Positions 3,815-20,088 of a stretch of 47,519 bases of DNA are shown piece after piece (within the stretch, counting starts at the first letter, position 1; every line of letters starts with the position of its first letter). The notes under the pieces are model-generated. The model ran no database searches and was not told the origin of the DNA. It saw only the letters and a program-made list of their open reading frames with translations. The position numbers and the translations under genes are program-made. The stretch comes from Candidatus Saccharimonadota bacterium (lineage in GTDB: Bacteria; Patescibacteriota; Saccharimonadia; Saccharimonadales; Saccharimonadaceae). The DNA is taken from positions 1 to 47,519 of the forward strand of contig JAFWHE010000020.1 of the NCBI GenBank assembly GCA_017512045.1, in the 5' to 3' direction.

Positions 3815-4246
3815 ATGAAGATGCTGTGGACTGACGGGAGTGCTTCGCCCAATCCTGGGCCTGGTGGTTTCGCTGTGATTGAAGATGGGAAGCCAGTCGC
3901 ATTAGGTCGAGAAGACAACACTACTAATATCAGAATGGAGGCCATGGCGCTGATTGCTGCGATGGAATACATCCAGTCTCAGCCAGAGGATGATTATCAG
4001 ATTAACACTGATTCAGAATTTTGGATTAATGTCTTGACCAAATGGGCAGAGGGCTGGAAAGAAAATGGCTGGCAGAAGAAATCAGGCGAGATTAAGAATT
4101 TGGACCTGGTACAAAAAATATATGAATTATGGACATCTCTCGGTGATAATGTGAAATTACAATGGACCAGAGGTCATGTAGGCACTGAGATGAATGAAGC
4201 TGCGGATAAATGGGCAAATAAGGCAAGGAAAGGAGCCACTCTATGA
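3815..4246 (+). CDS. rnhA: Ribonuclease HI
   Basis: A 143-aa type 1 RNase H that cleaves the RNA strand of RNA-DNA hybrids. The four catalytic acidic residues are visible: D in WTDGSASPNPGPGG (about residue 6), E in RMEAMALIAAM, D in NTDSEFWIN and D in NEAADKWANKA. I chose the ATG at 3815 because the longer upstream frame adds non-homologous residues and TATAAT (3803-3808) ends 6 nt before this ATG, suggesting a leaderless message. It starts an operon running through the CYTH, DUF4868 and exonuclease VII genes. The next gene overlaps its stop by 4 nt. Confidence 0.93.
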   Translation: MKMLWTDGSASPNPGPGGFAVIEDGKPVALGREDNTTNIRMEAMALIAAMEYIQSQPEDDYQINTDSEFWINVLTKWAEGWKENGWQKKSGEIKNLDLVQKIYELWTSLGDNVKLQWTRGHVGTEMNEAADKWANKARKGATL

Positions 4247-15528: not shown

Positions 15529-15825
15529 ATGAGTACTACAATACCAACACAGATTAGAATTGATGTGGAGACGAAGCGTGAGGCTAGCGCATTATTCCGT
15601 GAGCTGGGAATAGATATGTCTGGTGCTGTGAATATGTTTCTGCGACAATGTGTGCTGAGGCAGGGCATGCCTTTTGAGGTAAAGATGCCGGAGTATAAGA
15701 AAGAAGTATTAGAGGCTATGGAGGAGGCGAAGCAGCTGGCTCACGATCCAAACGCTGAGACTTATAAAACTTTTGAAGAATATCAGGAAGCAATGAGGAG
15801 ATATGTGGAGGATGAAGAACAATGA
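15529..15825 (+). CDS. RelB/DinJ-family antitoxin
   Basis: A 98-aa ribbon-helix-helix antitoxin. The N-terminal IPTQIRIDVETKREASALF and LGIDMSGAVNMFLRQCV match DinJ/RelB, and the acidic C-terminal tail would wrap the toxin. A strong Shine-Dalgarno (AAAGGAG) precedes it. It overlaps or abuts the toxin gene. It neutralises the toxin and represses its own operon. Confidence 0.9.
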   Translation: MSTTIPTQIRIDVETKREASALFRELGIDMSGAVNMFLRQCVLRQGMPFEVKMPEYKKEVLEAMEEAKQLAHDPNAETYKTFEEYQEAMRRYVEDEEQ

Positions 15826-16108
15826 AAAGATATACACAGTTATAACTACGGCGAAGTATAAGAAAAGCTACAGAAAAATGGTCAAGCGCGGTGTGGATAT
15901 TAGAACTCTTGATAAGGTTGTCAAGAAACTGTCTTACGGGAAACAGTTAGGCTTCAAATATCACGATCATATATTAAAAGGGAAGTATAGTGGATTTCAC
16001 GAATGTCACTTGATGCCTGATTGGCTGCTAATTTACAAAATAGAAGATGACATACTAATTCTGACTTTGATTGATACTGGTTCACATGCTGATTTGTTTG
16101 ATATGTGA
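15812..16108 (+). CDS. YafQ-family mRNA interferase toxin
   Basis: A 98-aa RelE/YafQ-superfamily ribosome-dependent endonuclease. The core YHDHILKGKYSGFHECHLMPDWLLIYKI and the ending LIDTGSHADLF are typical of YafQ, including the catalytic histidines (the motif is given here in parts: HDHILKG, FHECHLMPDW). The start is uncertain between 15803 and 15812. Both overlap the antitoxin gene and imply translational coupling. Confidence 0.88.
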   Translation: MKNNEKIYTVITTAKYKKSYRKMVKRGVDIRTLDKVVKKLSYGKQLGFKYHDHILKGKYSGFHECHLMPDWLLIYKIEDDILILTLIDTGSHADLFDM

Positions 16109-16689
16109 TATAACTTTTTGTCCAATTGTCAACCCTACAAAACCGAACAAAACATAACACAAAAACAACTCCCTTTGTTCGGTAATAACTACATGAATAT
16201 ACTTATTTGACAAGGCCGTATTTCGCATAAAATCGGTGGAAAACTAACAGGGAAGGCTATAATTCTTGTGGAAAACCAACAGATAACAGGGGAAAGCATA
16301 AGAAAATTAAAAAAATGCTAAAAAAGGTCTTGATTTTTTTGGAAATGTTGTGCTAAACTAAGGACAAGTGGAAATAATAATACAAAAACCACAAAAATAA
16401 AAATAAATTGCACATTAATAAAGTTTGAGGTTGGCCAACTAGGAGTTTTGGCGCGCGTTTAGGATACGCGAAATCAAAACCGCATGTACACTCTAAACAC
16501 CTCCCAATTAACTCTAATGAACAACCAATCTAACACATATTAAGTCTCTCAACGACTACGAATTTTATATTCGTGGTGAAGAAAATATGTATAAATCACA
16601 AAAACTATACAAAAACAAACACGCGAAAATTTCTAGTTGGGCGATCTCAAACATTGTCCGATTATATTGTATTAGGTATAATATAATCA
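16109..16689. other. 581-nt gene-free region upstream of the division cluster
   Basis: No ORF of note. It holds a 15-nt direct repeat GTGGAAAAC(T/C)AACAG (16236-16250, 16268-16282) and two AACAGGG motifs. There is a GTTTTG...CAAAAC paired segment with an inner CGCG/CGCG stem (around 16453-16483), and a hairpin CTACGAAT / ATTCGTGG (around 16555-16576). The right end carries the TATAAT box for rsmH (16677-16682). I see no mraZ, which often begins this cluster. Confidence 0.5.
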
Positions 16690-17565
16690 ATGGAAGAACA
16701 CCATAAACCAGTGTTACTGTCGGAAGTATTGCAAGCATTGAATCCGCAGCCTGGTGAAAACTATTTGGATTTCACAGCAGGGTACGCAGGTCATGCGAGC
16801 AGAATTTTGGATGTAACGCAGAATTATAAGGATTCCGTCCTGGTAGATCGGGATGAAAATGCAATCAAATATTTATCGGAGAAATTTGCGAATACAAAGA
16901 TAAATATTATGCACGATGATTTTTATAGTGCGGCGCTACAGTTATGTAAGTGTGGAAATACTTTTGATATGATACTCGCTGATTTTGGGGTGTCTTCTCC
17001 GCAACTAGACGTAGGATCTAGGGGATTTTCTTTCATGCATGAAGGTCCGCTCGATATGAGGATGGATAGTAGGCAGGAATTGTCAGCTGATACCATTATT
17101 AATACATGGAGCGAGAAGCAACTGTGTGAAATATTCTCCAATTACGGTGAAATGTCGCCTGGATTTTCTCAGAAAGTAGCGCGGATAATTCTGACTCAGC
17201 GTCCATTTAGGACGACGACAGAACTGGCAAATGCAATTGCCAAAGAAACTAGAAAGTCACGGATTCATCCGGCGACTAGGGTTTTCCAGGCAGTGCGTAT
17301 TGCTGTGAACGATGAGCTTGGAATTATCACGAAAACTCTCCCACTTTTGCCGAAGCTATTGAAGCCGGGTGGTAGGGTAGCGATTATTACTTTCCATAGT
17401 CTAGAGGATCGTTTGGTAAAAGATTTTTTCAAAGATGCTTCTCAAAAAGGTGAAGAGTCGGAGCTAAAAATTATAAACAAAAAGCCAATTATTGCGGAGA
17501 AAGTGGAGTTAGTTAACAATCCGCGGGCGCGTAGCGCGAAACTACGAGTGGCTCGTGGTTGTTAA
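16690..17565 (+). CDS. rsmH: 16S rRNA (cytosine1402-N4)-methyltransferase RsmH
   Basis: A 291-aa SAM-dependent methyltransferase that modifies C1402 in the 30S P site. It starts HHKPVLLSEVLQALNP, followed by YLDFTAGYAGHASRIL (SAM motif I), DMILADFGVSSPQLD, GFSFMHEGPLDMRMD and PGGRVAIITFHSLEDRLVKDFF, all diagnostic for MraW/RsmH. It is the first gene of the division/wall cluster. TATAAT lies 7 nt before the ATG with no Shine-Dalgarno. Confidence 0.96.
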   Translation: MEEHHKPVLLSEVLQALNPQPGENYLDFTAGYAGHASRILDVTQNYKDSVLVDRDENAIKYLSEKFANTKINIMHDDFYSAALQLCKCGNTFDMILADFGVSSPQLDVGSRGFSFMHEGPLDMRMDSRQELSADTIINTWSEKQLCEIFSNYGEMSPGFSQKVARIILTQRPFRTTTELANAIAKETRKSRIHPATRVFQAVRIAVNDELGIITKTLPLLPKLLKPGGRVAIITFHSLEDRLVKDFFKDASQKGEESELKIINKKPIIAEKVELVNNPRARSAKLRVARGC

Positions 17566-17598
17566 AATAAAAACAATAAACAAAAAAGGAGGGCAAAT

Positions 17599-17664
17599 AT
17601 GCCACGTCAAATCACTGTAATGAACAAATCTCGCGCACAGAAGATTAAAGTTAATTTTCGCTAA
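17599..17664 (+). CDS. 21-aa basic peptide
   Basis: MPRQITVMNKSRAQKIKVNF-R, 7 Arg/Lys in 21 residues, behind an excellent Shine-Dalgarno (AAAAAAGGAGGG) 6 nt from the ATG. It sits between rsmH and a structured RNA-like element, in the same direction. It could be a small basic protein or a leader peptide controlling the downstream hairpins. I do not recognise it. The ribosome site is as good as any in the window, which argues for real translation. Confidence 0.5.
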   Translation: MPRQITVMNKSRAQKIKVNFR

Positions 17665-17885
17665 GAGATTTATCAACCCGTAGTATGAAGTATTAGCAGG
17701 TCGGTCAGATTCATCTGATCCACCTTGCTAAAACGGGATACCGGGTGCATATGGAGGGAAACCTCCACCAGGTTGAGTAGAGAACCTGGCAGGTGTTTAC
17801 AAAAAATAATATGACCTTCCTGGGGCGGAGCTTATAACACTTATAGCTCTGTTATTGGTGGCCGTCCCAGTCTTTTGATCACAAA
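17665..17885 (+). ncRNA. Structured RNA element in the division cluster
   Basis: Four stems are visible. CCCGT/ACGGG (17677-17737) encloses a long hairpin built on AGCAGGT...ACCTTGCT. GGAGG-GAAA-CCTCC (17753-17766) has a GNRA tetraloop. CCAGGTT/AACCTGG spans 17768-17789. CTGGGGCGG/CCGTCCCAG (17820-17870) encloses a smaller hairpin and is followed by TCTTTTGATC. It lies in the leader of the ftsL-pbp-mraY-ftsW-murG genes. It does not show the signatures of RNase P, tmRNA, SRP RNA or the common riboswitches I know. It may be a regulatory leader or an independent RNA. Confidence 0.55.
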
Positions 17886-17984
17886 ATTTTTTGTAAAAAT
17901 AGACACTTTAACTAGGGAATCTATCAAAAATGTTATCAGCAATTATTTTACTCATTGGACTTAAAAAGAAAAGGAAAGCAAACA

Positions 17985-18332
17985 ATGCGAAACGAATACG
18001 TATCTAGGCGAGGAGGAAACGTTACGAACTCTTGGTCACGCAATCAGAATATTATCCGTCACGACCATAGAAGTTTGGGCACTATGAGCAGTAGCGCAAT
18101 CATTGGTATGATGGTTTTGATTATTGGTTTGATTTATGCGACTCAGGGTGCCAAGGCTACTACGTATGATTATGAGCTTTCTAATTTAGAAGAAGAAATA
18201 TCAGATTTGGAATCTAGAAAAGAAGATTTGGCAGTAGAGCGAGCAAGGCTAACTTCTATTGCTGCGACCGAAAGTTCCTCTGTGGCGGCTAATATGCCAG
18301 ACGGATATGCATCTGGTTATGCTAATGAATAA
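17985..18332 (+). CDS. FtsL-like small division membrane protein
   Basis: A 115-aa bitopic protein: a basic cytoplasmic part of about 40 residues, one membrane helix (SSAIIGMMVLIIGLIYAT), then a heptad-like coiled coil (ELSNLEEEISDLESRKEDL). This is the FtsL/DivIC topology, and it sits directly before the class B PBP as ftsL does. Sequence conservation in FtsL is very low, so the call rests on topology and position. The ATG at 17985 is preferred (AAAGGAAAG upstream) over a TTG at 17955. Confidence 0.65.
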   Translation: MRNEYVSRRGGNVTNSWSRNQNIIRHDHRSLGTMSSSAIIGMMVLIIGLIYATQGAKATTYDYELSNLEEEISDLESRKEDLAVERARLTSIAATESSSVAANMPDGYASGYANE

Positions 18333-18357
18333 GCCGATTATGGTATAATAAGTAGGT

Positions 18358-20088
18358 ATGAAAAACCGTGCAAAGACACTCGGAATTATCTTGATGTCAG
18401 CCGTAACATTAATTTTGATACGGCTATTTTTCATACAGATTATTGAACATGATAGTTGGGTGGCACGTGCAGAACAAGAGCATATCGTTCAGAACACTAT
18501 CAAGGCCAAGCGTGGCGAAATTTATATGATGGATGGGGAAGATCCAGTGATTGCTGTGATGAATGAAAAAGTTTGGTCGGTGATCATAGATCCGATGCTA
18601 GCAGACGCGGAAAAGACTCAGACAGAAGTCACGAAAGCCGCTGGTAGTCATCTGGTAGCTGATTGGAAGGATGCCTTTGCTGATAAGACCCGTAGATATT
18701 ATGTAGTAGCGAGGAATCTCAAGAAAAATGAGGCAGATCAGATTCGAGAGGCTAATTTGACGGGTGTTTATCTGCATCGTGATAATGCTAGGGCTTATGC
18801 TGAAGGGCAGTTGGCTTCATCGCTCCTCGGTTTTGTGAATGCGGATGGAGTAGGGCAATATGGCGTGGAAGGTGCTCTGGATGATGATTTGTCTGGTGAA
18901 GATGGTATTCTAAAAACTGTGACGGATGTCAATAACGTGGCACTTTCTATTGGCGATGATAATGTGCGTATTCCAGCCAAAGATGGAAAAAACGTAGTCC
19001 TTTCTATTGATCGTAATATTCAACATGCGATGGAAAGAGTTTTGCAGGCTGGGATGGACAGATCCAAGGCGGAGCATGCAGCAGGCTTAGTAATGAATCC
19101 GCAAAACGGCGAAGTGTGGGCATTGGCTAATCTGCCGACTTATGATGCGACAAAATACGCAGAAATAGAAGATGCTTCAGTTTTTGTTAATATACCACTA
19201 GAAAGTGCATATGAGCCAGGCTCTATGTGCAAGACATTCTCTTTTGCGGCGGCAGTTGATCAGGGTAAGATGTCGCCGCAGACGACATATTATAACGCAG
19301 GATTCTTGACTGTGGATAATTGGAAAATTGAGAATGCGTATAAGGGCTTAATCGGTACGGTTAATATGCAGACAGGACTAGACTATTCGCTAAATACTAG
19401 CTCGATGACAGCGCTCAAATTATTGGGTGATGATATTGATCATATCAATCAGAAAGGTAAAGATATCCTCTATGATTATTACTATAATAAATTCGGCTTC
19501 GGGCAATATACTGGTATAGAATTATTTGAAGCAAAAGGGAATATCACAGAACCAGATGCAGAAGACGCATATAATTCTCGCTATGCTAATATGACCTTTG
19601 GCCAAGGTATAGATTTGACTATGATGCAAGTAGCAGCGGCATTTTCTAGCGTAATTAATGGTGGAAATTTCTATCGTCCGACCGTGGTGGCAGGTGAGGT
19701 TTCGCCTAGCGGAGAGTTTATTTACTATGATTCGCCAGAGCCTATTCGAGAAACCGTATCTGCCGATACTTCCGCCATAATGCGCGGGATGCTTTATGGT
19801 ACGCGTGCTAATCGCAGGATGACAGGCGTAGATAAACCGGGATATTACATCGGCGGTAAAACTGGTACATCGCAGACGATTATCGATGGCGCATACTCCT
19901 TTGCTGAGACGATCGGAAATTATATTGGCTTTGGTGGCAGTGAAGGGGAGTTGCCAGAATACGTAATAATGGTTAAAATATGGGGGGAGGGTTTGAAGAT
20001 GGGGGGTGAAGTAGATGCATTACCTATGTTTGATGATATGAATGCGTATATGCTCGACTATCTAAAAATTAAACCAGGAGGAAGCTAA
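18358..20088 (+). CDS. Class B penicillin-binding protein (FtsI/PBP2-type transpeptidase)
   Basis: A 576-aa peptidoglycan transpeptidase. One N-terminal membrane anchor (LGIILMSAVTLILIRLFFIQ) precedes a PBP dimerisation domain and the transpeptidase domain. The active-site SxxK motif is SMCK in EPGSMCKTFSF, followed by SLN in DYSLNTSSM and KTG in GGKTGTSQT. It forms cross-links at the septum together with the FtsW glycosyltransferase encoded two genes downstream. TGG-TATAAT lies 8 nt before the ATG, so it probably also has its own leaderless promoter. Confidence 0.93.
   Translation: MKNRAKTLGIILMSAVTLILIRLFFIQIIEHDSWVARAEQEHIVQNTIKAKRGEIYMMDGEDPVIAVMNEKVWSVIIDPMLADAEKTQTEVTKAAGSHLVADWKDAFADKTRRYYVVARNLKKNEADQIREANLTGVYLHRDNARAYAEGQLASSLLGFVNADGVGQYGVEGALDDDLSGEDGILKTVTDVNNVALSIGDDNVRIPAKDGKNVVLSIDRNIQHAMERVLQAGMDRSKAEHAAGLVMNPQNGEVWALANLPTYDATKYAEIEDASVFVNIPLESAYEPGSMCKTFSFAAAVDQGKMSPQTTYYNAGFLTVDNWKIENAYKGLIGTVNMQTGLDYSLNTSSMTALKLLGDDIDHINQKGKDILYDYYYNKFGFGQYTGIELFEAKGNITEPDAEDAYNSRYANMTFGQGIDLTMMQVAAAFSSVINGGNFYRPTVVAGEVSPSGEFIYYDSPEPIRETVSADTSAIMRGMLYGTRANRRMTGVDKPGYYIGGKTGTSQTIIDGAYSFAETIGNYIGFGGSEGELPEYVIMVKIWGEGLKMGGEVDALPMFDDMNAYMLDYLKIKPGGS

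Follow-up and report, generated by a model that had tools for sequence, protein, structure and literature searches.

The junction between rsmH and ftsL in the division (dcw) cluster of this Saccharibacteria genome probably holds two elements, namely, a gene for a microprotein conserved across the class Saccharimonadia and, behind it, a cis-acting intercistronic RNA that would set the expression of ftsL and of the later genes. The small ORF and the RNA are better read as two separate things. The window (the whole 47,519-nucleotide stretch of DNA analyzed) belongs to a genome of 0.73 Mb (G000:C3). Its close relatives are Candidatus Saccharibacteria, most of them metagenome-assembled genomes from the guts of ruminants and other animals. 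Saccharibacteria are tiny epibionts in which the control of division is little known, and a literature search found no work on their rsmH-ftsL junction, including none pairing Saccharibacteria with ftsL.

The initial annotation had placed the ORF and the RNA between rsmH and ftsL, and the gene order bears this out. The junction (17566-17984) is bounded by rsmH, recognized by its TIGR00006 match, and by an ftsL-like gene, after which family matches identify FtsI/PBP2, MraY, FtsW, and MurG. A profile search found no family match for the 115-aa ORF at 17985, which is assigned as ftsL from its position and size only. The features discussed below are as follows.

16654-16682, + strand: sigma-70-like promoter TTGTCC-17-TATAAT directly before rsmH (consensus match only)
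16690-17565, + strand: rsmH (mraW), the 16S rRNA methyltransferase gene that opens the cluster (TIGR00006, E 4.5e-91)
17586-17594, + strand: Shine-Dalgarno (SD) sequence AAGGAGGGC of the small ORF, kept in relatives (sequence and relatives)
17599-17664, + strand: microprotein gene, 21 aa, MPRQITVMNKSRAQKIKVNFR, ATG at 17599-17601 and stop TAA at 17662-17664 (conservation, dN/dS, profile searches)
17676-17746, + strand: stem P1, a long irregular hairpin of 27 bp (predicted fold)
17740-17876, + strand: stretch matched by covariance model R1 (26.5 bits, E 3.5e-4)
17752-17770, + strand: stem P3, 6 bp with GAAA tetraloop (hairpin at 17752-17767), reading U(-1), GGAGG-GAAA-CCUCC-A, then CCA (fold, covariation)
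17768-17789, + strand: stem P4, 7 bp, enclosing a conserved GAG (GAGUAGAG loop), with an alternative form in other clades (fold)
17810-17819, + strand: near-invariant single-stranded motif UAUGACCUUC, 5' of P5 (alignment)
17820-17870, + strand: stem P5, outer 9 bp CTGGGGCGG/CCGTCCCAG (CUGGGGCGG/CCGUCCCAG) (strongest covariation)
17839-17851, + strand: near-invariant P5 loop ACUUAUAGCUCUG (alignment)
17985-18332, + strand: ftsL-like gene, 115 aa, with SD-like AAGGAAAG at 17971-17978 (position; homologous start in relatives)

The 21-codon gene and its longer paralogue

In a DNA search against 40 relatives, the ORF was the best-conserved part of the junction. Its start at 17599 and its Shine-Dalgarno sequence had been correctly placed, and AGGAG is conserved in nearly all of the 82 distinct ORF loci read in relatives. 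The test of peptide conservation for which the initial annotation had called found the peptide in 68 of the 72 genomes of the genus, and the 64 distinct coding sequences gave a pN/pS of 0.25 and a dN/dS of 0.126, showing coding-type selection on the ORF. Residues P2, Q4, I5, S11, R12, and F20 are invariant among these sequences, with codons that vary for several of them. Judged by this conservation, the 21-codon ORF is a real gene, and we infer that its product acts as a protein.

A related small ORF was found in 55 of 58 rsmH-ftsL junctions, which is every junction that could be parsed (in the other three the end of rsmH was not recognized), and in every readable junction it sits between these two genes. 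The peptides, of which MPIHVKSSSRAYKVHVRVL is an example from another genus, share the class-wide consensus MPIxVxxxSRAxKVxVRxx and measure 19 to 27 aa, with a C-terminal length that varies after the SRxxKVxV core. Of the 198 genomes of the order, 180 have a match to profile A5, built for the whole class; in a wider comparison it detects 12 of 15 class members versus none of 177 other Patescibacteria. Since it overlooks some genuine members (3 of the 15 class genomes), the absence of the ORF outside the class also rests on direct reading of junctions, where other Patescibacteria have rsmH and ftsL close together and no small ORF between them. No credible relative of the microprotein was found in Pfam, NCBIfam, or PDB, the sole weak Pfam match being IF2_assoc (E 0.031, one member only). 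As delimited by these searches, the microprotein family is new and its range is the class Saccharimonadia. A gene of 19 to 27 codons that holds one place in the division cluster class-wide is almost as small as conserved protein genes get; it falls below the usual annotation cut-offs and is unannotated here.

Some genomes contain a second peptide match away from rsmH, which corresponds to a gene of about 30 aa with its own Shine-Dalgarno sequence and the pattern MPIKVKxxxSRxxKVEVxVxRPSWQQFIxY. This longer paralogue, ending in RPSWQQFIxY, is set among unrelated genes in several families, with no ftsL nearby; its usual convergent neighbor we take, from its N-terminus, to be the gene of a putative thioredoxin/DsbA-like membrane protein. 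A profile of the paralogue matches in 160 of 198 genomes of the order, the weaker matches being the short form, and detects it neither in this genus (g1) nor in the related genus g53. Unannotated copies lie outside the window at loci L335-L364, among others. AlphaFold gave no confident fold for it (pLDDT 54), and a beta-hairpin is no more than suggested by the alternation of hydrophobic residues. The microprotein and this longer form make up a paralogous pair, the second of which has its gene away from the junction in most of the order. A peptide whose sequence is also found as a gene in its own right is more easily seen as a free protein than as a cis-acting leader.

Leader systems of the TnaC, ErmCL, and SpeFL type consist of a short SD-led ORF, an RNA structure, and a regulated gene, and the junction resembles them: its ORF of about 20 codons has a Shine-Dalgarno sequence and stands ahead of a structured RNA, behind which lies a gene that could be regulated. 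Leader-peptide control of the division genes, one of the two roles first suggested for this locus, would have the progress or arrest of the ribosome on the 21-codon ORF refold the RNA and thereby change the translation or transcription of ftsL. The constant order of Shine-Dalgarno sequence, ORF, structured RNA, and ftsL across the class suits such a mechanism, as do selection on both the ORF and the RNA and a chain of 19 to 27 aa that would fit wholly inside the ribosome tunnel. Unlike in the known systems, however, there is no fixed distance from a stall site to the structure (from the stop codon to the hairpin it is anywhere between about 2 and 70 nt), no run of a single residue in the peptide, and no co-conservation of the structure, the peptide being retained in other genera ahead of an unrelated hairpin. 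The varying C-terminal length, the lack of a terminator-like U-tract at the junction, and the occurrence of the paralogue outside the operon, in a context without ftsL, further disfavor it, and neither regulatory codons nor an arrest motif at a fixed distance from the structure was found in the relatives' peptides and junctions. Because the length distal to the core and the distance to the RNA both vary, and a paralogue exists, the small ORF is probably a free microprotein gene rather than a leader peptide; control by a leader is possible and, in our judgment, unlikely.

A covarying RNA behind the microprotein gene

The four stems, the GAAA tetraloop, and the final 9-bp stem described at first sight are all present as placed. 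The fold has a z score of -6.10 for 17565-17900 and of -5.07 for 17665-17885, which leaves out the ORF, and no shuffle was as stable. Across 51 aligned sequences, 14 of the 16 consensus pairs carry two-sided compensatory changes. In the main clade (25 sequences), pairing holds in 96% of cells; two-sided change is seen in 17 of 23 pairs (9 in shuffles) and in 84 cells (21 in shuffles). Pairing in these 25 sequences fell below 50% when the partner was slid by a single base. The window's own clade (10 sequences) has two-sided change in 7 of 15 pairs, and P5 covaries there too. P1 is a predicted stem whose sequence is highly variable among relatives. A lack of covariation in relatives, on which the initial annotation had staked its structured RNA, is not what we found: the tested stems covary above both the shuffled and the slid controls.

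With the window sequence left out of its construction, covariance model R1 locates the RNA as a single copy, in the same slot and orientation, in 42 of the 43 genomes sampled from the genus; the remaining genome (G049) has a variant form with a low score (L080). At default filters R1 found no RNA in other genera, and a direct search adds a diverged RNA in the related genus g53 (L211, E 5e-6). None of the 4227 families of Rfam 15 gave a gathering match at the junction, nor any match up to E 10 for 17450-18100, in agreement with the earlier remark that the RNA fits no known class. The Rfam mraW RNA motif of actinobacteria, found upstream of mraW, is alike in being a structured RNA in the division cluster; it differs in its position before mraW and in its phylum, and it too went unmatched by cmscan here even at E 10. 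A misplaced tmRNA or RNase P RNA was ruled out, the genome having its own copies elsewhere (C6:11962-12315 and C6:15472-15807, both over the cut-off), and ARAGORN found no tRNA or tmRNA gene at the junction. Fold stability and covariation show the downstream RNA to be real, and it constitutes a new family, so far confined to this genus and one related genus.

The near-invariant unpaired parts of the RNA are the GAG, a GUGU, UAUGACCUUC, and the P5 loop ACUUAUAGCUCUG. In one subclade the P5 loop becomes AGCGAUGCGGUGGUGCGG and the P3 loop becomes UUCGCUAAACGAA, and the two could kiss via AGCG/CGCU; P3 is altered in the subclade with loop AGCGAUG (L076-L082, L131). Docking of the GAAA tetraloop into an 11-nt receptor (UAUG..CUAAG) is unsupported, the GAAA clade itself having CUUAG/CUUUU. 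Three further candidate pairings, namely, an AGAG/GCUCU pseudoknot, UGACCUUC as an anti-Shine-Dalgarno element (only 4 to 5 pairs with AAGGAGG), and pairing of a Shine-Dalgarno sequence with the invariant CCUUC motif, have both sides invariant or nearly so, and covariation is uninformative for them.

The spacing between the ORF and the RNA can be large, with several hundred bases separating them in L015 and L083, where the RNA matches at 2030-2143 and 1784-1918, respectively; L083 also has a second, partial match at 1676-1726.

The hairpin slot in other genera and its RCCA tail

In the other genera, the slot behind the microprotein gene is occupied by one strong hairpin in 51 of 54 cases, followed by an A-rich leader and then ftsL. 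Many of these stems measure 11 to 15 bp, and no U-tract follows the hairpins in the sequences read. The peptide is kept while the complexity of the RNA changes across the class. The plain hairpin seems to be the ancestral state, from which the RNA of this genus seems to have grown, making its origin traceable within two genera. These two genera (g1 and g53) are the only ones with the elaborate RNA, and in neither was the paralogue of about 30 aa detected, a striking coincidence that involves two genera and perhaps one event.

An RCCA sequence stands directly after the 3' arm in 17 of 45 slot hairpins, versus 1 of 101 hairpins located elsewhere on that strand in these loci, the one exception being the same slot, misparsed (Fisher p ~2e-9). 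In this genus P3 shows the same arrangement, with U-1 in 51 of 51 sequences, G+1 in 51 of 51, and RCCA in 46 of 51. The tRNA genes in the window encode CCA.

These features suggest that RNase P, or another enzyme that processes tRNA ends, might cut the dcw mRNA at the RCCA-tailed hairpin, between the microprotein gene and ftsL, and so uncouple the fate of the two halves. Model substrates of RNase P have a 12-bp acceptor plus T-stem, to which the frequent 11- to 15-bp stems of the other genera come close, and the confinement of the RCCA enrichment to the slot and the presence of U-1, G+1, and RCCA together in P3 point the same way. PMC12710915 describes RCCA-dependent cleavage of a small model substrate, a hairpin that shares with the junction its U-1, G+1, and 3' RCCA. 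Compared with such model hairpins, the present candidate lies inside an mRNA and has a short stem (about 5 to 6 bp for P3 in the genus), and the RNase P RNA of its genome seemingly lacks the RCC-pairing loop. In the Rfam alignment, the L15 region of this genome's RNase P RNA (L178 1501-1836) is shortened, with CGUUCA in place of CGGGU, and appears to be without the GGU of the GGGU partner of RCC. The RCCA tail is also far from universal, being missing in over half of the other genera, and pairing of a leader with RCCA is reported in PMC9433436 to be able to inhibit productive binding. Given the apparent absence of an L15 loop that pairs with RCC from this genome's RNase P RNA, we keep this cut as a rival and hold it to be quite unlikely as the explanation of the junction. 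The RCCA-tailed hairpin gives a directly testable processing hypothesis for the operon mRNA.

A probable cis-acting element within the operon message

The reading we prefer, a translated gene for a free microprotein of 19 to 27 aa followed by a separate RNA, would have the latter act in cis on the polycistronic dcw mRNA, where rsmH gives way to ftsL. A consensus scan of the coding strand turned up nothing resembling a promoter from the end of rsmH to ftsL. The site directly before rsmH, the sole one on the coding strand of 16400-18400, likely drives the cluster, with the reservation that promoter-like matches in the region are as numerous in shuffled as in real sequence. The ATG of rsmH lies 8 nt past its -10 element, and the rsmH mRNA may be leaderless, with translation starting at this promoter-adjacent ATG. 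Because of the likely promoter before rsmH and the lack of a promoter-like site behind it, the junction RNA is read as intercistronic, and it is read as cis-acting because its synteny is constant and it always lies on the same strand.

In most of the class the slot is filled by the single hairpin, often RCCA-tailed, and in this genus and one other by the folded RNA of about 130 to 220 nt, made of P1, P3, P4, P5, and the fixed loops UAUGACCUUC and ACUUAUAGCUCUG. We infer that this RNA sets the output of ftsL-ftsI-mraY-ftsW-murG relative to rsmH, most likely as an intercistronic switch of processing, stability, or translation, for which an RNase P-like cut 5' of P3 (U-1|G+1 with RCCA) would be one concrete possibility. 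Selective RNA processing and stabilization (SRPS), involving intercistronic stem-loops, is described in PMC8219983 and offers a comparable arrangement, in which a stem-loop between genes of one operon presumably determines how much upstream message there is relative to downstream message. Unlike the SRPS stem-loops, the putative control element here follows a conserved gene of 19 to 27 aa, often has an RCCA tail, and is elaborated with invariant loops in one genus. The combination of a microprotein with a genus-level structured RNA would be a fresh variation on the known theme of intercistronic control.

The second role first suggested for this locus, a stand-alone small RNA acting in trans, either released from the operon or embedded in it, with the ORF as an unrelated neighbor, could draw on the compact fold and on the near-invariant loops exposed for binding. 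It found no support in the distribution of the RNA, which is present in one copy per genome in a constant slot and orientation, has nothing promoter-like on its strand in the rsmH-ftsL interval, and has a plain hairpin as its ancestral form, and we consider it improbable. Equally improbable is a bolder version of the preferred reading, in which the 21-residue product would serve Saccharibacteria as a novel factor in division or translation and would bind the RNA that follows its gene, the two forming one feedback switch on ftsL, and in which the RNA would have been elaborated in this genus and its relative upon loss of the longer paralogue. Least probable is a metabolite-binding riboswitch for the cell-wall and division genes with P3-P4-P5 as its aptamer, for which a covarying genus-level fold with invariant loops upstream of ftsL, ftsI, mraY, ftsW, and murG might speak, but which has no obvious expression platform (no terminator, and an ftsL Shine-Dalgarno sequence about 100 nt away in A-rich sequence), no Rfam relative, and only one operon, in two genera, to act upon.

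Two minor observations concern the surroundings and the fine structure of the junction. The next gene upstream of the division cluster is that of a YafQ-type toxin (window 15803-16108; Pfam PF15738, E 4e-30), with about 580 bases and no obvious gene in between. In the related genus (L211, about 2580-2760, and L113, about 4040-4160), copies of UUUUGACC (or AUGACC) are found at two to three places along the junction RNA, and a subclade of this genus (L017, L060, L062) has a second UAUGACC before P1; the recurring UUUUGACC/AUGACC may be a repeated binding site.
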